Positions 2,139 through 11,541 of a stretch of 11,541 bases of DNA are shown in pieces. Where the stretch lies: positions 1-11,541 of the forward strand of contig SKNJ01000142.1 in NCBI GenBank assembly GCA_007120575.1, given 5' to 3'. Source of the stretch: Thioalkalivibrio sp. Lineage in GTDB: Bacteria > Pseudomonadota > Gammaproteobacteria > Ectothiorhodospirales > Ectothiorhodospiraceae. A program made the position numbers and the translations under genes. The first letter of the stretch is position 1. Each line of letters opens with the position of its first letter. The notes beneath the pieces were generated by a model, which saw nothing but the letters and a program-made list of their open reading frames with translations, searched no databases and had not been told where the DNA came from.

Positions 2139-3565
2139 GGCGGCGCCCCGGCTTTCTGCGCCGTGGCCACGCGCAGCGCCAGCGCGCAGGACATCAGCCG
2201 GGTGCGCAGGTTGTCCGAGCGGCTGGTCAGAATGACCGGCACGCGCGCGCCCAGCACCAGGCCAGCGGCGTCACTGTTGCCGAGGAAGGTCAGCTGCTTG
2301 GCGATCATGTTGCCCGCCTCGATATCGGGCGCGACCAGGATGTCGGCATCGCCGGCAACCGCGGAGACAATACCCTTGTTCTCGGCCGACTGGCGCGAGA
2401 TCGCCGCATCCAGGCCCAAGGGTCCGTCGACGATGGCATGTTCGATCTGCCCGCGATCGGCCATCTTGCACAAGGCCGCGGCATCGAGGGTCGACTGCAT
2501 GCGGCCGTTGACCACTTCCACCGCCGACAGCAGCGCCACCTTGGGCCGCTGATCCTGGCCGCCGCAGGCGGTGCGCCACAGGCCGATGGCGTTACGGCAG
2601 ATATCAGCCTTGACCTCGAGATTGGGCGCGATGTTGATGGCCGCATCGGTGATCAGCAGCGGCTTGTGATAAGTCGGCACATCCATCACGTAGGCGTGAC
2701 TGATGCGCCGCTCCGTGCGCAGACCTCCGGCAGAAGCGACCAGGGCGGACAACAACTCGTCGGTATGCAGCGCGCCTTTCATCAAGGCCTGGACGCGGCC
2801 GGTGGCGGCCTGGCGCACGGCTTCGGCGGCCGCGGCATGGGAGTGTTCAACGTCGATCAGTTCATAGTTCGAGATATCCACTTCGGCCTCTTCGGCCGCG
2901 GCGCGGATGCGCGACTCCGGCCCGACCAGCACCGGTACGATCAGGTTTTCGGCCACGGCTTCCGCGATGGCCCGAATGCCATGGGCCTTGACCGGGTGCA
3001 CGATGGCGGTCCGGAGCGGATCCAGCCCGGCGCAGGAATCGATCAGTTCGCGGTAGCGGTCGTGATGCCGGAACTGCACTTCGGGCAATTCAGCCCGCTT
3101 CTGGCGCACCTTCTCGATCGGCGCCAGCACCACCGCCTTGCCGCTGACCAGCATCTCGCCCAGGTCATTGCGGCACTCGCAGTCCAGGGTGACCACCGGC
3201 TTGTCGTGTCGCTTCTCGCGCACGGTCAGGCGCACGTGCACGGTATCGCCGATCCGCACGGGCTTGCTGAAGCGCAGGTCCTGGCTCAAATAAATCGTGC
3301 CAGGCCCCGGCAGCAGCGTGCCGAGCACGGTGGCGATCAAGGCCCCCGGCCACATGCCGTGACCGATGATGCCCTGGAAGATGGTGTTGTTGGCGTAAAC
3401 CTCATCCAGATGCGCGGGGTTGACGTCGCCCGACATCACGGCAAACAACTCGATGTCTTCCTTCGACAGCTTGCGCGACAGACCGGCGTGCTGGCCGATC
3501 TTCAGTTCATCGAAGGTGAAGTTCTCCAGGTACTCGTCGGGCTTGTCGGGTCGATTCGATTCCAT
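2135..3565 (-). CDS. Bifunctional MaoC-like (R)-enoyl-CoA hydratase / phosphate acyltransferase
   Basis: This is a fusion of 476 residues. Residues about 12-150 form a MaoC-type hot-dog domain, with the (R)-hydratase signature SGDVNPAH (Asp47, His52 as the catalytic pair) and GIIGHGM at 65-71. A short charged linker follows. Residues about 175-470 are a phosphate acetyl/butyryltransferase, recognisable from VPVLVGPE (210-217), the DGPLGLDAAIS stretch (380-390), ADILVAPDIEAGNM (407-420) and ARVPVILTSRSD near the end. The first half would hydrate enoyl-CoA to (R)-3-hydroxyacyl-CoA; the second would convert acyl-CoA + Pi to acyl-phosphate + CoA, feeding AckA encoded next. Fusions of this type, paired with acetate kinase, are a known bacterial family. 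ATG 3565 has GGGAG nine bases upstream. The Doc toxin gene ends 21 bp upstream on the same strand, so read-through from the toxin-antitoxin promoter is possible. Confidence 0.92.
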   Translation of the reverse strand: MESNRPDKPDEYLENFTFDELKIGQHAGLSRKLSKEDIELFAVMSGDVNPAHLDEVYANNTIFQGIIGHGMWPGALIATVLGTLLPGPGTIYLSQDLRFSKPVRIGDTVHVRLTVREKRHDKPVVTLDCECRNDLGEMLVSGKAVVLAPIEKVRQKRAELPEVQFRHHDRYRELIDSCAGLDPLRTAIVHPVKAHGIRAIAEAVAENLIVPVLVGPESRIRAAAEEAEVDISNYELIDVEHSHAAAAEAVRQAATGRVQALMKGALHTDELLSALVASAGGLRTERRISHAYVMDVPTYHKPLLITDAAINIAPNLEVKADICRNAIGLWRTACGGQDQRPKVALLSAVEVVNGRMQSTLDAAALCKMADRGQIEHAIVDGPLGLDAAISRQSAENKGIVSAVAGDADILVAPDIEAGNMIAKQLTFLGNSDAAGLVLGARVPVILTSRSDNLRTRLMSCALALRVATAQKAGAPP

Positions 3566-3586: not shown

Positions 3587-4009
3587 TCAATATGCGGCGG
3601 CGGCTTCGCTGACAGTTTGCGGGCGGGCGTGGCGACGCAGCCAGTCGGCCAGTTCGGCTTCCGTCAGGGTGCCTTCGGCCAGGCCGAGGAAGACCGGATA
3701 AAGATCGGCATCTTCCGCCACCAGCAGGTAGCCGTTGAGTTCCAGAAAGACTTCGCAGCCGACCGCCGCGGTACGCTTGTTGCCGTCGATGAACGGATGA
3801 TTTCGCGCCAGGCCGAACGCGTAGGCGGCAGCCAGCGCGGGCGCATCAACCAGAGTATCGCCATAGACCGCCAATTGCTGCGGCCGGGCCAGGGCTGATT
3901 CGAACAGGCCCCGGTCGCGCACGCCCGAAGGCCCTCCATGCTCAGCCAGCTGACGCTCATGAATGGCCTCGGCCAGCTCCGGGGAAATCCAGATCCACTC
4001 AGTCATCAT
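3587..4009 (-). CDS. doc: Death-on-curing (Doc/Fic family) toxin
   Basis: This 140-residue all-alpha Fic-fold protein carries the core motif HPFIDGNKR at 71-79. It combines His71, Phe73, Asp75 and the terminal NKR typical of Doc, whereas AMP-transferring Fic proteins end in GNGR. Doc toxins phosphorylate elongation factor Tu and stall translation, and that activity is the best prediction here. Upstream features also fit: the G-x-R-D-x-G-L-F-E-S-A-L segment (29-40) and the helix DAPALAAAYAFGLARN before the motif are standard for the family. The start ATG at 4009 abuts the antitoxin TGA (4010-4012) with no intervening base; a second ATG follows directly at 4006. Adjacency and order (antitoxin first) make a type II toxin-antitoxin operon. 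The motif looks intact, so there is no sign of toxin inactivation. Confidence 0.92.
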   Translation of the reverse strand: MMTEWIWISPELAEAIHERQLAEHGGPSGVRDRGLFESALARPQQLAVYGDTLVDAPALAAAYAFGLARNHPFIDGNKRTAAVGCEVFLELNGYLLVAEDADLYPVFLGLAEGTLTEAELADWLRRHARPQTVSEAAAAY

Positions 4010-4237
4010 TCACTCCGCCAGCTTCTTGAGCAGATTGCGGCGCCGGCGCATGACCTTTTCGGCCACATCCATCTGGGCCGCGAATACCGGATCGAATGGC
4101 GTCAGCGCAATCCCATCCGGCGTTTCCAGCACCATCAGTTCATCTCCACGCTGAACGCGCAGTTTTTCCAACAGTTCCTTGGGCAAAACCACGCCGGTGG
4201 AATTGCCAATGGCGGTCAGTTTGAGCTTGCGGGTCAT
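4010..4237 (-). CDS. AbrB/MazE/SpoVT-family antitoxin
   Basis: This small protein of 75 residues starts MTRKLKLTAIGNSTGVVLPK, the swapped-hairpin AbrB/MazE DNA-binding domain with its G-N-S-x-G-x-x-x-P-K core. It continues with LLEKLRVQRGDELMV. The C-terminal tail (about 46-75) is charged (MRRRRNLLKK) and is the expected toxin-neutralising part. It should block the Doc toxin encoded immediately downstream and repress its own promoter. The start at ATG 4237 was chosen because the AbrB fold begins there, GGAA lies just upstream, and a perfect TATAAT (4266-4271) lies within any longer version. The frame is open to 4318 but that extension would overlap the promoter. Confidence 0.9.
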   Translation of the reverse strand: MTRKLKLTAIGNSTGVVLPKELLEKLRVQRGDELMVLETPDGIALTPFDPVFAAQMDVAEKVMRRRRNLLKKLAE

Positions 4238-4265
4238 GAGATTTTTCCGGGTTGGCCTGATCGCC

Positions 4266-4285
4266 ATTATAACGTTTGTAATAAC
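4266..4285 (-). promoter_or_regulatory. Promoter -10 and candidate operator of the toxin-antitoxin operon
   Basis: On the - strand a perfect TATAAT occupies 4266-4271, about 30 bp before the antitoxin ATG. No convincing -35 hexamer is seen 16-18 bp further upstream. Two related octamers, GTTATTAC (4278-4285) and GTTATAAT (4266-4273), lie in direct orientation with a 12-bp period and overlap the -10. They are candidate antitoxin binding sites. This AT-rich island stands out from its GC-rich surroundings. Confidence 0.5.
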
Positions 4286-4339
4286 CAACGTGCCAGTCCC
4301 CGGGCCGATCAAGGTCAAGCGCCCCGGAAAGCCCGGATC

Positions 4340-5701
4340 TCACTCGGCCAAAGGATTCAAGACCCGCCCCAGAAACAGAATGGTGTCGGTCGGATGATCG
4401 TAGATGGCATAGACAAACGGCCGATCAAAGCGGATTTCCAGCGGTTCGTCCTCGACCGGCATGGCGGTCAAGCGCATCATCACCACCGCCGTGGCGGCGG
4501 CGGCCTCGGTGCCGGCTTCGTCCAGATCGATGAAGGTCTTGTGGAACACCTCGTCGATGTACAGCGACTGCCCCAGCACACCCGGCCCGACGCCATTCAT
4601 GCGGCGGAAATCGGCCTCGGTTCTGGAGAACGCCAGAGGCATGCCCATGTCCTGCAGCAAATCCGACAGACGGAAACTGCTGCCGCCGGTGAATTTCGGG
4701 AAATCCAGCGCCGCGCGCTTGCGCTCCAGACCCTCGACAAGCAAATCGAACGCCGCCCGATCCATGCCGCCCAACCAGGCATCGAAATCGGCCTCGGAAT
4801 CCGCCGGCATGAGGGCCACTAGTGAGACCTCACGACCCAGGTAAGGCAGGCTGACGCCGATGGTGTCGCCACCCACGTGGGCCGCCATGTGATCCGTACG
4901 GTGCATCATGGGCACCTCAACGGTGCGGCCTCGGCCGGTCGTGAAGGGCTGATCGCGGGTCAGTTCCGCCTCGAAGGCATCCTGCCAGCTGGCCAGGAAA
5001 TAGATCGCGTTGACCAGGATCATGCGGGTGTCTTCGTTGACGCTGCCGTCAGGCAGCAGATCACGAATGCGCTCGCGGGTCTGCTCCTCGACCCACTCGT
5101 TGACCTGGCCGCGAATACCGTCCGGATCGCTCTCGAAATCCACCAGCTCGACGCCAGCGCCGTAGTAGCGCTCGATCAACTCCAGATACTCGGGCAGAAA
5201 ACCACCATCATGCTGGCCCCACAGCCGGTTGACCACCGACAGCTCGAAGCCGCGCGCCTCGCCCTGCCGCTCAAGCTTGGCGCGCTCGGCCAGGGCCGCG
5301 TCCAGCGCGCCGAACGCCCGATGCAGTGCCGGCTCGTCCAGGGCAAATCGCAGGGCCTCGCGCATCTGCACGCGGGTCGAGCCGTCGGCCCCGGCATACA
5401 CCATGGCCAAGGCCGACAGAATCGAGTGCGGCGAGATCAGCAGGTGATCGGAAGCCTCCGGATTGGCCAGCAGCTGTTGAAAGGCGGCCAGGGCAAAGTC
5501 ACGGTTGCCGCCGGCAAAACGGTCTTGATCGAACTCAGCGAGCACTGTGGTTTCCTCGAGTTCAGTCGCCGCCGGTGCTTGGTCGGCCACCGGCAGGGCC
5601 GATTCGGGAACGTCGGCTGGCGTCGCTTCCTGCTCGGAAGCCGGTTGACACGCCGTCAGGGCGACGGTGAGCACAGCAGCAAAAATGGCAAGCCGGATCA
5701 T
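4340..5701 (-). CDS. Serpin-family protease inhibitor, predicted lipoprotein
   Basis: This 453-residue protein has a short signal peptide ending in the lipobox L-T-A-C, so Cys18 should be lipidated. The next residue is Gln, compatible with outer-membrane sorting. A low-complexity Ala/Pro/Glu linker (19-60) precedes a complete serpin domain, with LISPHSILSALAMVYAGA (88-105), NAIYFLASWQDAF (231-243) and the family signature IRFDRPFVYAI (423-433). The hinge of the reactive loop is GTEAAAATA (397-405), the small-residue pattern needed for loop insertion and an inhibitory mechanism. Counting from the hinge glycine as P15 places P1 at Leu411 with Thr412 as P1' and Arg410 at P2. This suggests a chymotrypsin- or elastase-like target, though one residue of register error would make Arg P1. 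ATG 5701 has GGAGA eight bases upstream. The gene is divergent from the SNF2 gene; its stop lies 102 bp upstream of the antitoxin start. Confidence 0.92.
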   Translation of the reverse strand: MIRLAIFAAVLTVALTACQPASEQEATPADVPESALPVADQAPAATELEETTVLAEFDQDRFAGGNRDFALAAFQQLLANPEASDHLLISPHSILSALAMVYAGADGSTRVQMREALRFALDEPALHRAFGALDAALAERAKLERQGEARGFELSVVNRLWGQHDGGFLPEYLELIERYYGAGVELVDFESDPDGIRGQVNEWVEEQTRERIRDLLPDGSVNEDTRMILVNAIYFLASWQDAFEAELTRDQPFTTGRGRTVEVPMMHRTDHMAAHVGGDTIGVSLPYLGREVSLVALMPADSEADFDAWLGGMDRAAFDLLVEGLERKRAALDFPKFTGGSSFRLSDLLQDMGMPLAFSRTEADFRRMNGVGPGVLGQSLYIDEVFHKTFIDLDEAGTEAAAATAVVMMRLTAMPVEDEPLEIRFDRPFVYAIYDHPTDTILFLGRVLNPLAE

Positions 5702-5816
5702 CGATATTTCTCCAGATTGGCGACCAGTCGGTATCGCTTCGACCGCTGGATCCGAAAAATGTCCCCTGCAGCTTCACTACACTATCGCGATCCATCCAGC
5801 CCAAAGTCGCAAGAAA
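5702..5816. other. Divergent intergenic region between the serpin and SNF2 genes
   Basis: This 115-bp spacer must carry start signals for both flanking genes. The serpin ribosome-binding site (CTGGAG on the - strand) is clear at its left edge. No good sigma70 hexamer pair was found on either strand, and no strong inverted repeat beyond a TCGCGA hexamer near 5785-5790. Confidence 0.5.
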
Positions 5817-8800
5817 GTGGCAAAAAAAGCCCGCGGTAGGAAAACCCAATCCCATTTAACAGCACGCTGGCTGAAATCCGAAGTTGATTCAGGCACTTGG
5901 CGCCGTGGCTCGGCCTATTTTCAGGACGGTCGGGCTGGAATACTGGAAGTTCAGGAAAACCGACAGGCCGTATCGATCCTCAGCCGATGCGAGGGCAGCC
6001 AGTTCGAGCCCTATGAGCAGGAAATCCTCATCATGTTCCACCGTCATGGCGCCAGTCTGACGGGTTACTGCGATTGCCCCGTAGGCTTCAACTGCAAGCA
6101 TGTGGTGGCCGCAGTACTGGAGTGGCAGCGGCAAATGGGCGTTGCTCCCGTCAAAACCGCCGACTCGGTGGACCTCTGGCTTGAGAACCTGACCTCTGAT
6201 CCTGACCGGGGAGCGGAAACTCCCAGGGACGCTCTGCTGTATAGGCTGTTCCCCAGTCGTGCCAAGCCCATTGTTTTGCAGCCCAGCTTTATGGTCACCA
6301 AGCCAAAACCCGGGGGTGGCTGGCAGGTCGGCCGTTCCACCATTCCAGCCAACTTGAGCGGTTCCCAGCCACGACCGGCCTACCAGACGCGCACTGATGA
6401 ACAAATCCTGGCGCTGATCAAGGCCTGCCTGCCATCGCCGGCTGTGGGACGCGGCTACCAACTGACCGGTACCAGTGGCGGTCTGGCCCTGCAGCTGATG
6501 CTGCAGACCGGCCGCTGCTTCCTGGACGACGGCAAAGAAAGGCCATTGAAGCCGGGCCCTGAACGAAACCTTGACGTCGAATGGATCAAAGACACCAAGA
6601 CCTTCCGCTGCGAGATCAAGCTTTCTGAGGGCGGCCTGCTGCTGGCCCTGGACCCGCCCTGCTACCTGGATACCGAGCAAGCCCTGGTCGGTTCGGTCCG
6701 TCTCCCGCCAGGTTTGACTGCAGACGACTTGCCCAAGCTGCAGTCCGCACCGAAGGTTCCGCTGGATCGCGCAGCGGCCGTCGCCAGAGCGCTGGCGCTG
6801 AAGGCGCCGCGCTTGCCGAGCCCGCTCAAGATCGAACAGCATGAGATTCGGGTCCAGCCGATCCCGCAGCTCGCTATCGACTTCGACCCGCGCGTGCCGC
6901 AGTTTGCCGTGGCAAAGCCCAGCTTCAACTATGGCGCTGAGCGCTTCGAGCCCGACGGTCCAGCCATGGTGATTCGGGAGGTCGACTCATCCGTGCTGCG
7001 AATCCATCGAGATCCGGCGGCCGAGGCCGCCGCGCTCGGCCAGCTGGAAGCACACGGCCTGATCCGGCAGGATGGCCGCTCTGATGCCTATATCCAGCCG
7101 GGATGGCTGGGTGATGCCGCCTTGCGCGCCAAGTGGTTTGCCTGGATCGAGCAGTCCATGCCCGAGCTGCGAGAACTCGGCTGGCAGATTGACCAGATCA
7201 CCGCCCAGGGCGTCAGACTGAGCTACGCCGGCGACATCCACGGCGAGGTCGAAGAGACCAGCAATGACTGGTTCAGCCTGCGCTTTGATCTGGAGGTCGA
7301 TGGCCAGTGCATGCCCCTGCTGCCGCTGGTCAGCGAACTCATCGGCGAGTACAAACCCGGCGAACTGCCGCCCACTCTTTACCTGAATGCCGGTCGGGGC
7401 CACTTCGTGGCTGTGCCCGCTGAACGCATCGAACCGATTCTTACGACCATCATCGAGCTGTTCGACCAGTTCACCGGCGAGGCACTCGAACTGCCGCGAC
7501 CCGACGTCGGGCGCTTGAACGATCTTGACGGCATTCCGGTTCAGGGTGCGACCTCACTGATCCAGCTCGCGGCGCGTCTGCGCGATTTTTCCGGCCTGGA
7601 AACTGTCAAGCTGCCGACCACTTTCAAAGGCCAGCTGCGCGACTATCAGCAGCATGGGGTCAACTGGCTGCAGTTCCTGCGCGCTCACGGCTTCGGCGGC
7701 ATCCTGGCCGACGACATGGGCTTGGGGAAAACCATCCAGACCCTGGCCCACCTGGCGGTGGAAAAGCGCGCCGGGCGCATGCAGCATCCCTGCCTGATCG
7801 TGGCACCGACCAGCCTGATGAGCAACTGGCAGCGAGAGGCTGAAAAGTTCGCTCCGCGGCTCAAGATCCTGGTTCTGCAGGGCCCGGAACGCTTTGAACG
7901 TTTCGAACAGATCGAGCAGGCGCAACTGGTCCTGACGACGTATCCCTTGCTGCCGCGCGATCGCGACGTCCTGCTGAAGCAGCGCTGGCACTACCTGATT
8001 CTAGATGAAGCTCAGCAGATCAAGAACCCGAAAGCACAGGCAGCACAAGTCGCGAGGCACCTGCAAGCCCAACACCGTCTGTGCCTGACCGGTACACCGA
8101 TGGAGAATCACTTGAGCGAGCTGTGGGCGCAGTTTGATTTTCTGATGCCGGGTTTTTTGGGTGACCACCAGGACTTTCGCCGCCAGTACCGCACGCCAAT
8201 TGAAGAGCGCGGTGACCTGGACGAATTGCAGCGGCTGACCCGGCGCACCGCCCCGTTCATGCTGCGTCGGACCAAGGACCGGGTGGCCGATGAACTGCCA
8301 CCCAAGACCGAACTGCTGCGCTCCGTGGCCCTGGGTGACAAACAGGCCATGCTGTATGAAAGCGTGCGCCTGACCATGGAAAAGAAGGTGCGCGACTCCA
8401 TCGCCCGCCGCGGCCTGGCGCGCAGCCACATCATCGTGCTCGAAGCCCTGCTCAAGCTGCGCCAGGTTTGCTGTGATCCACGCCTGCTGCCCGCAGGAAC
8501 CCGCGGGGCAAAATCGGCCGGCTCGGCCAAGTTCGAGCTGCTGTTCGATCTGCTGCCGGAGTTGATCGACGAGGGCCGGCGAGTGCTGCTGTTTTCCCAG
8601 TTCACCACCATGCTGGGACTGATCGAGGCCGAGGTCAAACAGCGCGGGATCGACTACACCAAGCTGACCGGCCAGACCCGCAAACGCGATGTGGCCATCG
8701 AGGCCTTTCGCTCCGGTCAAGCCAATCTGTTCCTGATCAGCCTGAAGGCTGGCGGCGTTGGCCTGAACCTGACCGAGGCCGATACCGTGATTCACTACGA

Positions 8801-9035
8801 CCCATGGTGGAACCCGGCCGTGGAGCACCAGGCCACCGACAGGGCCCACCGCATCGGCCAGGACAAGCCGGTGTTTGTCTACAAGCTGGTCGCCGAGGGC
8901 ACGGTGGAGGAAAAGATCCTGGCCCTGCAGGAACGCAAGCAACAACTGGCCGACCGGGTACATGGACAAGGTCGCGCACACGACCAGCCGCCGATCGACC
9001 AGGCGACCATCGAGGCACTGCTGGCCGCGGTCTGA
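5817..9035 (+). CDS. SNF2-family DEAD/DEAH-box ATPase with N-terminal SWIM zinc finger
   Basis: This is a large ATP-dependent DNA translocase, 1072 residues from the GTG start used here. A SWIM zinc-binding motif sits at C85-x-C87-x5-C93-x-H95. A long middle region (about 100-600) is of the kind seen in bacterial SWIM-SNF2 proteins. The ATPase core follows: Walker A ADDMGLGKT (Asp632 to Thr639), DEAQ Walker B (730-733), LTGTPMENHLSELW, then the helicase-C half with LLFSQFTTML and motif VI QATDRAHRIGQ starting at Gln1005 (Arg1012). All catalytic residues are intact. SNF2 proteins move along duplex DNA and remodel bound proteins; a specific target is not readable. The frame is open to ATG 5667, but that start lies inside the divergent serpin gene. 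GTG 5817 is the best candidate past the serpin, although its ribosome-binding site is weak. The gene converges on jetD with only 15 bp between stops. Confidence 0.9.
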   Translation: MAKKARGRKTQSHLTARWLKSEVDSGTWRRGSAYFQDGRAGILEVQENRQAVSILSRCEGSQFEPYEQEILIMFHRHGASLTGYCDCPVGFNCKHVVAAVLEWQRQMGVAPVKTADSVDLWLENLTSDPDRGAETPRDALLYRLFPSRAKPIVLQPSFMVTKPKPGGGWQVGRSTIPANLSGSQPRPAYQTRTDEQILALIKACLPSPAVGRGYQLTGTSGGLALQLMLQTGRCFLDDGKERPLKPGPERNLDVEWIKDTKTFRCEIKLSEGGLLLALDPPCYLDTEQALVGSVRLPPGLTADDLPKLQSAPKVPLDRAAAVARALALKAPRLPSPLKIEQHEIRVQPIPQLAIDFDPRVPQFAVAKPSFNYGAERFEPDGPAMVIREVDSSVLRIHRDPAAEAAALGQLEAHGLIRQDGRSDAYIQPGWLGDAALRAKWFAWIEQSMPELRELGWQIDQITAQGVRLSYAGDIHGEVEETSNDWFSLRFDLEVDGQCMPLLPLVSELIGEYKPGELPPTLYLNAGRGHFVAVPAERIEPILTTIIELFDQFTGEALELPRPDVGRLNDLDGIPVQGATSLIQLAARLRDFSGLETVKLPTTFKGQLRDYQQHGVNWLQFLRAHGFGGILADDMGLGKTIQTLAHLAVEKRAGRMQHPCLIVAPTSLMSNWQREAEKFAPRLKILVLQGPERFERFEQIEQAQLVLTTYPLLPRDRDVLLKQRWHYLILDEAQQIKNPKAQAAQVARHLQAQHRLCLTGTPMENHLSELWAQFDFLMPGFLGDHQDFRRQYRTPIEERGDLDELQRLTRRTAPFMLRRTKDRVADELPPKTELLRSVALGDKQAMLYESVRLTMEKKVRDSIARRGLARSHIIVLEALLKLRQVCCDPRLLPAGTRGAKSAGSAKFELLFDLLPELIDEGRRVLLFSQFTTMLGLIEAEVKQRGIDYTKLTGQTRKRDVAIEAFRSGQANLFLISLKAGGVGLNLTEADTVIHYDPWWNPAVEHQATDRAHRIGQDKPVFVYKLVAEGTVEEKILALQERKQQLADRVHGQGRAHDQPPIDQATIEALLAAV

Positions 9036-9050: not shown

Positions 9051-10262
9051 TCAGGCTATGTGCTCGAACTGATCGAGAAAAGCTTTCAACCAGGCGAAGC
9101 GGATGCGCTCCTGCTCCAGGCGCAGGCGCGGAGCGAACACATCATCACGCAGCGCCCGGTAAAGGTCTTGCTCGCTGGCATCCAGCCCGCTCAGCTCACC
9201 GCGAAAGCGGCGATCCTCGGGCTCCTGGCCCCACAGCTCACGGTGGGCATCGAGTGTCGCCCGGTCCATCAAGAACGACCGAACCTCGGGCAGATGGGCA
9301 CGCAGGCGATTGAGCATGGCAAAGCCGTGGGTGTCGATATCGCCCCAGTACCAGCACCTCGCGCGCGACAGCCAGTCGATCCCGGCCAATCGATCCAGGC
9401 CATAACCCAGACCGAACACCACGATGGCGCGCGGATGGGCCGGAAAGGCCAGACCGTTGGTCTCGTTTTCGGTGATGAAGACCTGGTCCACGTCCAGCTC
9501 CAGGGCGGCGAATTCGTCAGCCGGCACGGCCAGGTCGGTCAGACCTTTCAGCGCCAGCGCTGGATCCAGAATGCGAAAGCGCACCATGACCGGGCGGTGG
9601 GCCAGCCCATAACGACGATTGAACCCAGCCGCACCGCTGGCCGATGGGTCAATGGCCTCAATCGGCAGTACGGCATCAAGCAGCTCGGACAGCAGACCGC
9701 GACGGGTCTCGATGAACTTGGTATCGACGCCGGGGATATCGAGCTGGCGCAGATACAGACCGGGGCGCGGATGGTCACGGAAATAGCGCAAGATGGCCAG
9801 CAGGCGCGGCCATTCATCAGCACGCTTCAAGACTTCCAGCGGGCGCCGCATCAACCAGTCGCGCAGACCGGGAAATTCCGCCAGCAGTTGGCTGCACAAT
9901 TGATCGAACCGCCGCGCCTGGGCGGCCTTGCCGATCAGACTCAGGGCGTCTTCGGCGCTGGGAATGACAATCGCCCTGGGCAGTCGGTTGCTGCCGCGGG
10001 TCCGATGCTCAATCGTGCGCCATTCAATCTCGTAACCGAATCCGCGGCAATCTCGAGAATGCTCGATCAGTTGGGCCACCCAATGGCGCACGGCATCGAA
10101 GTGGTCCGTCAAATCGCGCGATCCTGCCTTGCGCAATCGCAATTTCAGCGGAAACATCGAGCCCTCAATGTCCAGGCGGCTAGCCAGAAGGCGCCCGGAG
10201 ATCCAGCACTGTCGAACTTGCGTGACCAGTTCATCGGGACTGGTCCAGGAACCGAGCTTCAC
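9051..10262 (-). CDS. jetD: JetD-like DUF3322/DUF2220 (Toprim) protein without jetABC
   Basis: This 403-residue protein matches the full two-domain JetD layout. The N-terminal DUF3322-type region (about 1-190) opens with SWTSPDELVTQVRQCW and G-R-L-L. The C-terminal DUF2220 Toprim-like region contains ITENETN (Glu265, Glu267) and YWGDIDTHGFAML (Asp308, Asp310), the metal-binding glutamate and D-x-D of the fold. In Wadjet, JetD is the nuclease, related to topoisomerase VI A subunits, that cuts small circular DNA held by the JetABC SMC complex. Here no SMC, kleisin or JetB gene is next to it. Instead its GTG start at 10262 follows the GHKL/STAS-like gene by 3 bp, so the two form one transcript. 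AAGG lies about eight bases before the GTG, and the DUF3322 motif at residue 6 supports that start. Active-site residues look intact, so it is unlikely to be a dead remnant. Its substrate in this setting is unknown. Confidence 0.88.
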   Translation of the reverse strand: MKLGSWTSPDELVTQVRQCWISGRLLASRLDIEGSMFPLKLRLRKAGSRDLTDHFDAVRHWVAQLIEHSRDCRGFGYEIEWRTIEHRTRGSNRLPRAIVIPSAEDALSLIGKAAQARRFDQLCSQLLAEFPGLRDWLMRRPLEVLKRADEWPRLLAILRYFRDHPRPGLYLRQLDIPGVDTKFIETRRGLLSELLDAVLPIEAIDPSASGAAGFNRRYGLAHRPVMVRFRILDPALALKGLTDLAVPADEFAALELDVDQVFITENETNGLAFPAHPRAIVVFGLGYGLDRLAGIDWLSRARCWYWGDIDTHGFAMLNRLRAHLPEVRSFLMDRATLDAHRELWGQEPEDRRFRGELSGLDASEQDLYRALRDDVFAPRLRLEQERIRFAWLKAFLDQFEHIA

Positions 10263-10265
10263 GCC

Positions 10266-11294
10266 TCAGGCCTTGGCCCTGAACACCATGCGGCTCACAC
10301 TCATGTTCATGTTGGCGGCATGGAGTTCGATACCTGGATTCTTGATCGCAAATACGCGAAAGATCTCATCAGCAAAGGCCTGACCAATCGTGTCAACGCC
10401 CTGGAAATCAAAAATGACCGTCTTGAATCGATCAACCCGATTCAGCAATCGCTTGGCCTGGGATCGCGAAACCAAGCGATCATCGCCATATTGCGCCAGC
10501 TTGACCGGCACGATGGTTTTGGTGAAAGCATATTCTTCGGGCGCGGCAAATTTCCTGAACACCCTGGCCATGGAACGTGAGCTGTGGTTATCGAGTTTCA
10601 TCCGGACCACCGTGCCCGACTCGAATCGGTCTCGTTCCATGATCCAGTCCTCGTCGTTGGAAAACTCATGCGTGAAGTACACGCCGCCGGACAGGATGTC
10701 GAACTTGTCGAACATTCGGGAGGTAAAGAAAATACCCTCACCCGTGTGGCGATCCGGATCCGTGGTGAGCTTGCCCTTGGCCAGTTCAAGCACGGCATGA
10801 CGCTCATCGGCCAGGTTCAAAGCGCGCTGAATTTTCCTGAAGATCCCTTCTCCGTTGTCCATGATCATGACTTCGGCGGACATGGCGGTTTTTTCAAGTG
10901 CGACGACGATCCGGGACCCCCCTGAATGATCGATGGCGTTGTTGAACATTTCCGTAAAGCCGTATTGCCAGATGGCTCCGACGTTGTCGGGAAGCTCTCC
11001 CAGCCGCGCAGCAATATCCTCACGCCACACCCGGTCCTCGGCAAGATCAGAACCCATCGGGTATTCGCCAGACCATTGGAGTACCGGCGCCAGGTGATAG
11101 CTTCGGCTGCGGGTACTGCCCTTGCCGACGATCGCGCCCTGGGCAATCAGATTCTTCATGTGGCGATTGACGGCCTGACGCGAGATGCCGAATTTCTGCA
11201 TCGTCCGGCGCACCACATCGCCGGGATGCCGCTCTACCTGGCTGAGGATGAAGTGGCGAACCGTTTCGCCCCGATCTCTGACGCGCATGATCAT
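10266..11294 (-). CDS. Winged-helix / GHKL ATPase / STAS-like (DUF4325) protein
   Basis: This 342-residue protein joins three modules. Residues about 5-70 form a winged helix (FGISRQAVNRHMKNLIAQGAI). Residues about 90-235 form a GHKL/HATPase fold with the N-box EMFNNAIDHS (Glu115, Asn119), the G1 box MDNGEGI (Asp146 to Gly150) and the G2 box HTGEGIFF (183-190). Residues about 260-342 are a STAS-like DUF4325 domain (VIFDFQGVDTIGQAFADEIF). The mix resembles an anti-sigma kinase and its STAS antagonist held in one chain, with its own DNA-binding head. ATP binding and autoregulation are reasonable inferences; kinase activity is not shown. ATG 11294 was chosen; TTG 11300 and ATG 11288 are in frame and possible. 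The third TTGACAAT repeat overlaps this start. JetD follows after 3 bp, so they probably act together. Confidence 0.87.
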   Translation of the reverse strand: MIMRVRDRGETVRHFILSQVERHPGDVVRRTMQKFGISRQAVNRHMKNLIAQGAIVGKGSTRSRSYHLAPVLQWSGEYPMGSDLAEDRVWREDIAARLGELPDNVGAIWQYGFTEMFNNAIDHSGGSRIVVALEKTAMSAEVMIMDNGEGIFRKIQRALNLADERHAVLELAKGKLTTDPDRHTGEGIFFTSRMFDKFDILSGGVYFTHEFSNDEDWIMERDRFESGTVVRMKLDNHSSRSMARVFRKFAAPEEYAFTKTIVPVKLAQYGDDRLVSRSQAKRLLNRVDRFKTVIFDFQGVDTIGQAFADEIFRVFAIKNPGIELHAANMNMSVSRMVFRAKA

Positions 11295-11343
11295 TGTCAA
11301 CTCTGGTTCGAATTATTGTCAACAAAGAACGCGGCATTGTCAA
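11293..11343 (-). repeat. Three phased TTGACAAT direct repeats upstream of the GHKL-JetD unit
   Basis: On the - strand the octamer TTGACAAT occurs exactly at 11336-11343, 11315-11322 and 11293-11300. The spacings are 21 and 22 bp, close to two turns of B-DNA, so all three face one side of the helix. The unit nearest the gene overlaps the start codon. The arrangement looks like an operator array, possibly for the protein's own winged helix. Confidence 0.85.
11315..11343 (-). promoter_or_regulatory. Predicted sigma70 promoter built from the TTGACAAT repeats
   Basis: The first repeat supplies a perfect -35 TTGACA (11338-11343). With a 17-bp spacer, GACAAT of the second repeat (11315-11320) falls where the -10 should be, matching four of six consensus bases. 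A start point near 11308 would give a leader of only about 14 bases. The second and third repeats make a similar pair with an 18-bp spacer, but that start point would fall near 11286, inside the gene. Confidence 0.55.
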
Positions 11344-11392: not shown

Positions 11393-11541
11393 TTATGGCT
11401 TGCGCGCGGCGGCTTCGGCCCGGTATTCCTCGATGGAGAGATTGCGCAGCATGGATTGCTTGCCGTCCGGGTTGTGGACGAAGCCGACGCTGGCCACGAA
11501 CGGCTCGATGATGTGGATTTTCTGCAGCGGGGTGACGATCA
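11393..11541 (-). CDS. C-terminal end of an unrecognised protein (5' end outside the window)
   Basis: An open frame enters from the right edge and ends at TAA 11393-11395, giving 48 residues. It starts IVTPLQKIHIIEPFV, continues with VGFVHNPDGKQSML and ends in a charged helix (SIEEYRAEAAARKP). Codon use, with G or C at most third positions, looks like a genuine gene. I do not recognise the family from this tail. It lies 98 bp upstream of the GHKL gene on the same strand. The TTGACAAT promoter between them suggests separate transcription, and no hairpin terminator is evident. Confidence 0.6.
   Translation of the reverse strand, partial: IVTPLQKIHIIEPFVASVGFVHNPDGKQSMLRNLSIEEYRAEAAARKP

Follow-up and report, generated by a model that had tools for sequence, protein, structure and literature searches.

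According to the available part of the article that describes them (PMC13373217), CapK and CapS are a GHKL kinase and a STAS-wHTH repressor that control CBASS/Bub and other immune operons as well as themselves and respond to single-stranded DNA; Wadjet is not named in the article. For JetD, the unspecific nuclease of Wadjet, the accessible portion of PMC10586767 describes safety through autoinhibition, which is relieved by JetABC, and homologues of BrxR are reported to co-localize with Wadjet in the accessible portion of PMC9122601. Here, we analyzed a window of exactly 11541 bases, the full length of contig C127, which ends inside jetC. The locus belongs to type I Wadjet, an anti-plasmid defense system, and its operon carries an additional regulator gene between the motor and nuclease genes. 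We regard its anatomy as secure, a regulatory role for the repeats at the regulator gene as likely, and control of jetD as plausible.

Anatomy of the Wadjet locus

The product of jetD (403 aa) carries the Pfam domains DUF3322 and JetD_C and scores in PADLOC as JetD type 1 (489 bits). Alignment to the solved chains of JetD and MksG shows its Glu265, Asp308, and Asp310 to be intact. Glu265 coincides with the residue mutated in the JetD(E248A) structure, and the three catalytic residues are common to 9 of 9 aligned JetDs. The preliminary description of this DNA had proposed a complete JetD-like protein with these residues, which is confirmed, and the features that mark type I Wadjet, DUF3322 with a JetD_C Toprim domain bearing catalytic Glu/Asp, are present. 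No JetD relatives were found in viral contigs. Matches were found in 12 plasmids, and each of the four plasmids inspected has DUF3375, DUF4194, SMC-type ATP-binding, and JetD-type genes in series.

It had also been stated that no SMC-family genes adjoin and that jetABC is lacking, but directly upstream, at the contig end, lies a truncated reading frame that is the C-terminus of JetC. This tail is 72–83% identical over 44–47 residues to 8 of the 10 JetCs compared: 83, 77, 74, and 72% over 47 residues to G055, G042, G045, and G043, respectively (E 5e-24 to 3e-22), and 76–80% over 44–45 residues to G072, G018, G008, and the JetC of a Thiodictyon plasmid. Identity was 56% to a Streptomyces plasmid JetC and 31% to G027. 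The reference used, G045 JetC, scores in PADLOC as JetC1 (1653 bits), and its G045 neighbors score as JetA1 and JetB1. The SMC subunit JetC is thereby recognized in the same operon as jetD from its C-terminal 48 residues alone; most of jetC and, presumably, the genes for the kleisin JetA and the KITE protein JetB are off the contig, which ends at 11541, inside jetC. A check for jetABC families in the same assembly, which covered JetA and JetB, returned no matches to the JetA profile and a single JetB match (E 0.19), far under the cut-off for its family. Completeness of the assembly, which is in 344 contigs, is 66.6%, and this fragmentary state together with the contig end can account for the missing JetA and the sub-threshold JetB.

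Transcription on the minus strand runs from jetC through three TTGACAAT repeats and the GHKL gene to jetD (Table 1). The gap from the jetC stop to the regulator start is 92–98 bp, and the regulator gene ends 3 bp ahead of the jetD start. The usual order has jetD directly after jetC, whereas here a 1.03-kb regulator gene and the repeat array lie between them. We call the locus a Wadjet variant because a regulator gene with its own repeats separates jetC and jetD.

Table 1. Positions of the features of the Wadjet locus in the window
Feature	Position	Strand	Evidence
jetC 3' end, last 48 codons and TAA stop, truncated by the contig end	11393..11539	-	Identity to JetC C-termini
Direct-repeat array, presumed operator	11294..11343	-	Repeats begin at 11343, 11322, and 11300
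wHTH - GHKL kinase-like - STAS-like (DUF4325) gene, 342 aa from ATG 11294	10266..11294	-	
Winged-helix domain, N-terminal, residues 1-80	11055..11294	-	Secondary structure; MarR/ArsR-like matches
GHKL domain, SpoIIAB-like, residues 86-235	10590..11039	-	Fold match; invariant residues
STAS-like domain, DUF4325, residues 257-342	10269..10526	-	
jetD, Wadjet nuclease, GTG start, 403 aa	9051..10262	-	DUF3322 and JetD_C; PADLOC; catalytic residues

We compared this arrangement with 38 other JetD loci, made up of 15 loci and a further 23 with flanks of about 1.5 kb. A class sample of 40 match rows supplied the 23: a locus was available for 30 rows, 23 of them new, and of the 10 remaining rows two had already been covered with the first set and the other eight were left out. 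In 35 of the 38 loci, jetC lies on the upstream side, two of these 35 (L117 and L213) being broken up, and no GHKL relative was found in any of the 38. The two genes overlap or lie a few bases apart in 29 of the 35 loci with jetC. The gap is 414–851 bp in L111, L198, L201, and L215, while in L196 and L213 it measures about 105 bp. Between jetC and jetD, L198 carries a PIN-domain gene that points the other way (1068–1699), L215 a 274-aa reading frame with a sub-threshold match to the ketopantoate reductase C-terminal domain (2655–3479), L111 a 61-aa reading frame without a Pfam match (5890–6075), and L201 414 bp with no clear gene (~2565–2978). These inserts suggest that the jetC–jetD border is an occasional insertion site. 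The PIN-domain gene of L198 has a small upstream reading frame, itself without a Pfam match, in a vapBC-like arrangement. Wadjet remnants were also observed: L117 holds short pieces of JetA, JetC, and JetD lying close together, and L121 a JetD piece alone.

Elsewhere in the window, a gene for an SNF2-family helicase with a SWIM zinc finger (5667–9035, plus strand) is convergent with jetD and ends 15 bp from its stop; contig C161 of this assembly carries a 61% identical paralogue. A serpin protease inhibitor gene occupies 4340–5701 on the minus strand; serpins are uncommon in bacteria. The Fic/Doc-family gene at 3587–4318 (minus strand), with a MazE-type antitoxin gene before it, looks like part of a toxin-antitoxin pair.

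The regulator, its repeats, and its family

In agreement with the domains first assigned to the gene 3 bp before jetD, HATPase_c_2 and DUF4325 scored over their cut-offs, with winged-helix families under theirs. The open frame reaches back to a TTG at 11300 (344 aa), and the ATG at 11294 gives 342 aa; judging by a 97% identical relative (P0002) that begins there, the ATG is the more likely start. The GHKL domain has a SpoIIAB-like fold with intact ATP-binding motifs, and the region behind it folds as STAS. Residues E115, N118, N119, D146, G148, G150, G185, and G187 are each invariant in 56 of 56 sequences, as is S278. The counterpart of the CapS phospho-Ser is Gln305 in 54 of the 56 and Pro in two, in a motif alignment whose register is unproven; the position was set from the predicted helix start and the SpoIIAA motif. 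The absence of this Ser suggests that the CapS mode of switching is not shared, and the alternatives are the invariant S278 or a conformational change alone; S276 and S278 are candidate sites of self-phosphorylation. The family combining DUF4325, GHKL, and winged helix is little studied, with at least 8000 scored database members, and in the open-access literature we noticed no paper on the function of DUF4325 or on any gene inserted at the jetC–jetD border.

An analogy to the TopoVIB/TopoVIA pairing, raised in the preliminary description, was rejected. The fold is the wrong one, and the remark that no transducer domain is visible holds, as there is no such Pfam match and STAS follows the SpoIIAB-like GHKL domain. 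TopoVI-B chains did appear in Foldseek (E 2.3e-3 to 4.2e-3, TM 0.17–0.19 to the target), ranked behind SpoIIAB.

The three direct repeats at the start of the regulator gene read TTGACAA(T) on the minus strand. Their recurrence was counted in the best 80 of 93 GHKL relatives, from named genomes, with a pair defined as two repeats 21 or 22 nt apart, located from −150 to +120 relative to the start of the ORF and with a single mismatch allowed on one side. A pair was present at the gene start in 57 of the 80 (39 exact), against 0.16 expected from the rest of the loci, and was missing in 23, mostly more distant relatives. In its own assembly, the exact pair occurs twice, both times within this array, and the reversed pattern had no matches. 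Exact pairs were found in 17 of 20 other GHKL-bearing genomes, most of which were chosen after repeats were seen in their loci, and the reversed pattern matched three times. Of 31 exact-pair places in these 20 genomes, 30 were retrieved, 28 at a GHKL gene start and two elsewhere. With the exact pair almost only at its own gene, the regulator may control nothing but itself.

The repeats at the locus can also serve as sigma-70-like −35 and −10 elements, in the forms TTGACA-17-GACAAT and TTGACA-18-GACAAT. Across the family, 33 of the 34 pairs spaced by 21 nt have the form TTGACA-17-GACAAT, which is what a promoter would show, and the 22-nt pairs end in GACAAT (TTGACA-18-GACAAT) in 13 of 30 and in GACAAA in 17. 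A promoter scan of the region returned two sites, just the repeat pairs, with 0.9 (sd 1.0) in shuffles, which is not clearly fewer, and no separate site ahead of jetD. From sequence, the repeats appear to be a putative operator and promoter in one, which suggests repression by occlusion.

Going by record titles, the 80 relatives come from several phyla. A phmmer search with the window JetD found no JetD beside them in any of the 80 retrieved stretches, and no neighbor family recurred within 6 kb in more than 10 loci. The next gene (ORFs of at least 150 aa) lies on the same strand in 31 loci and on the opposite strand in 41, with none in eight, and this absence of strand bias argues against a general role of the family in controlling operons. 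No match to the GHKL protein was found in 72,556 plasmid and 50,697 phage records; three loci with relatives (41–58% identity) were found in viral contigs. The GHKL gene looks like a self-controlled, horizontally moving, usually solitary gene. Two Competibacteraceae carry such a GHKL/DUF4325 gene directly after kdpA (L035:7372–8412 and L021:4107–5144), and in L035, an E1-E2 ATPase gene lies 35 bp downstream of it, so that the potassium transporter operon appears split. A transposase-like reading frame, which we take to be IS1-like, lies upstream of the GHKL gene on the opposite strand, near the repeats, in 4 of the 80 loci (L018, L025, L059, and L066); these are too few for transposition to be accepted as the means of spread.

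Co-occurrence with JetD was then sought in database lists of the best 120 GHKL and best 120 JetD matches, the same contig being judged from equal contig size. Three sizes of at least 5 kb were common to both, against 0.06 expected: 6826 bases (GHKL 97% and JetD 95% identity), 23444 bases (76% and 71%), and 382473 bases (72% and 73%). A shared size of 1731 bases was excluded as too small for both genes, and one JetD row carried no contig size. As a positive control, the JetC and JetD lists (best 120 each) had nine such sizes in common versus 0.4 expected; the GHKL and JetC lists (best 120 each, JetC matches at least 62% identical to G045) had none. We have good confidence that GHKL and JetD relatives share a contig in three further cases, as co-location and not adjacency. 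In a GHKL tree of 84 rows (60 of the 120 database rows, 23 loci, and the window), the paired proteins are scattered inside one 21-row clade (SH-aLRT 100) on a long branch (0.29). Three of the five database contigs above 6 kb in this clade match a JetD contig among the matches listed; those of 9392 and 34727 bases have no JetD match among the matches listed. The paired JetDs, in a tree of the best 120 database JetDs and eight others, fall inside one 52-row clade (SH-aLRT 100) and are not all adjacent. None of the nine common JetC/JetD sizes falls in that clade, among the best 120 JetC matches with G045 as the query.

Possible control of jetD and rival explanations

Our preferred reading, to which we assign a probability of about 0.5, is that a one-chain SpoIIAB-like kinase-repressor, so named by analogy, would repress its own gene and jetD within a type I Wadjet operon; the JetD cutter would then probably be made under separate control from the motor. 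The winged helix would bind the repeats and block the promoter, which would repress both the regulator gene itself and jetD, transcribed together with it from 3 bp further on. A signal, perhaps single-stranded DNA if CapK and CapS are a guide, would be sensed through the ATP-binding and STAS part and would alter the shape or oligomer of the regulator, freeing the promoter. JetABC would come from the operon's own upstream promoter, with extra JetD supplied on demand, and jetD may also be transcribed by read-through from jetC. A bolder version, which we advance only tentatively, is that a single protein, with sensor, switch, and DNA-binding parts in one chain, licenses JetD apart from JetABC: the motor would be present at all times and JetD topped up only after a DNA-damage-like signal. 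The protein would belong to a nomadic self-repressing family, marked by a TTGACAAT array that is operator and promoter together, whose genes have entered unrelated operons across several phyla.

A strong competitor, though we do not favor it, is that a solitary self-regulated GHKL gene, of a kind that settles at gene borders, landed between jetC and jetD as an uncoupled passenger, with jetD read from the upstream promoter. It stands close behind the preferred reading, since members of the family usually occur alone and the repeats mark the family's own gene. The 80 loci without a common neighbor family or strand bias downstream, the gene after kdpA in two Competibacteraceae, and the unrelated inserts at the jetC–jetD border of L198, L215, and L111 all fit a passenger. 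Against this, GHKL and JetD share further contigs at 71–76% identity, as judged by equal size, the GHKL proteins of the paired contigs fall in one clade on its long branch, and the shared strand and 3-bp spacing would make jetD dependent on the regulator transcript or on read-through. The preliminary description had suggested that the GHKL/STAS protein is a partner or switch for JetD. A direct role at the protein level, in which it would bind to JetD or JetABC and thereby switch the nuclease, as with VapS–VapC or TopoVIB–TopoVIA, is unlikely. The STAS protein VapS of the related VapKSC system inhibits its nuclease directly, according to the available part of PMC13373217, and the spacing with jetD is tight, but the relatives lack JetD (0/80), the transducer domain is absent, and the winged helix and repeat array indicate DNA.

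An accidental joining of the GHKL gene to the Wadjet locus in assembly is very improbable. The draft is fragmented, and GC content is 56.0% in the regulator gene and 47.8% in the promoter gap, below the 61–66% of the neighboring genes; however, the lower GC of the gene also fits horizontal acquisition, and the 97% and 95% identical relatives both lie on contigs of 6826 bases. Least probable of all is the two-gene orphan system acting without JetABC that was first proposed: the JetA and JetB searches would fit it, but the JetC C-terminus is directly upstream, the contig ends inside jetC, and the assembly is incomplete. The earlier interpretation is thus supported in part, without its JetABC-free module and its transducer-less TopoVI pairing. 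The case also cautions that a defense gene that looks orphaned near the end of a contig may belong to a truncated operon. If jetD is separately controlled, this would be a second safety layer for JetD beyond autoinhibition and a natural handle on the extruder running without its cutter, and the repeat array offers a concrete candidate DNA target for the DUF4325/GHKL/winged-helix family.

Comparison with known systems

The locus resembles type I Wadjet in the DUF3322 and Toprim domains of JetD, its intact catalytic residues, and the JetC C-terminus upstream in the same direction, and it differs in that a regulator gene and repeat array part jetC from jetD. BrxR/CapW (WYL) and CapH+CapP are likewise repressors adjoining defense genes, but their domains are unrelated to those of the window regulator, and they usually stand ahead of an operon, not within it between a motor gene and a nuclease gene. 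The anti-sigma kinases SpoIIAB/RsbW and their STAS antagonists SpoIIAA/RsbV are separate proteins, whereas here GHKL and STAS are fused, with an N-terminal winged helix added; no sigma factor gene was seen in the window. With CapK+CapS, the regulator shares a DNA-binding helix, a SpoIIAB-like GHKL domain, STAS, a position adjoining an immune gene, and likely self-regulation. CapK+CapS, however, comprises two genes, HTH-STAS-GHKL and STAS-wHTH, whereas the window protein is one chain in the order wHTH-GHKL-STAS. The operators of CapK+CapS are palindromic and lie at their own and the downstream promoter, in contrast to direct repeats 21/22 nt apart. Helix 2 of the CapS STAS domain has a conserved Ser where the window regulator, in an unproven register, has Gln305. 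Finally, unlike CapK+CapS as described in the available part of PMC13373217, the window regulator sits inside a Wadjet operon.
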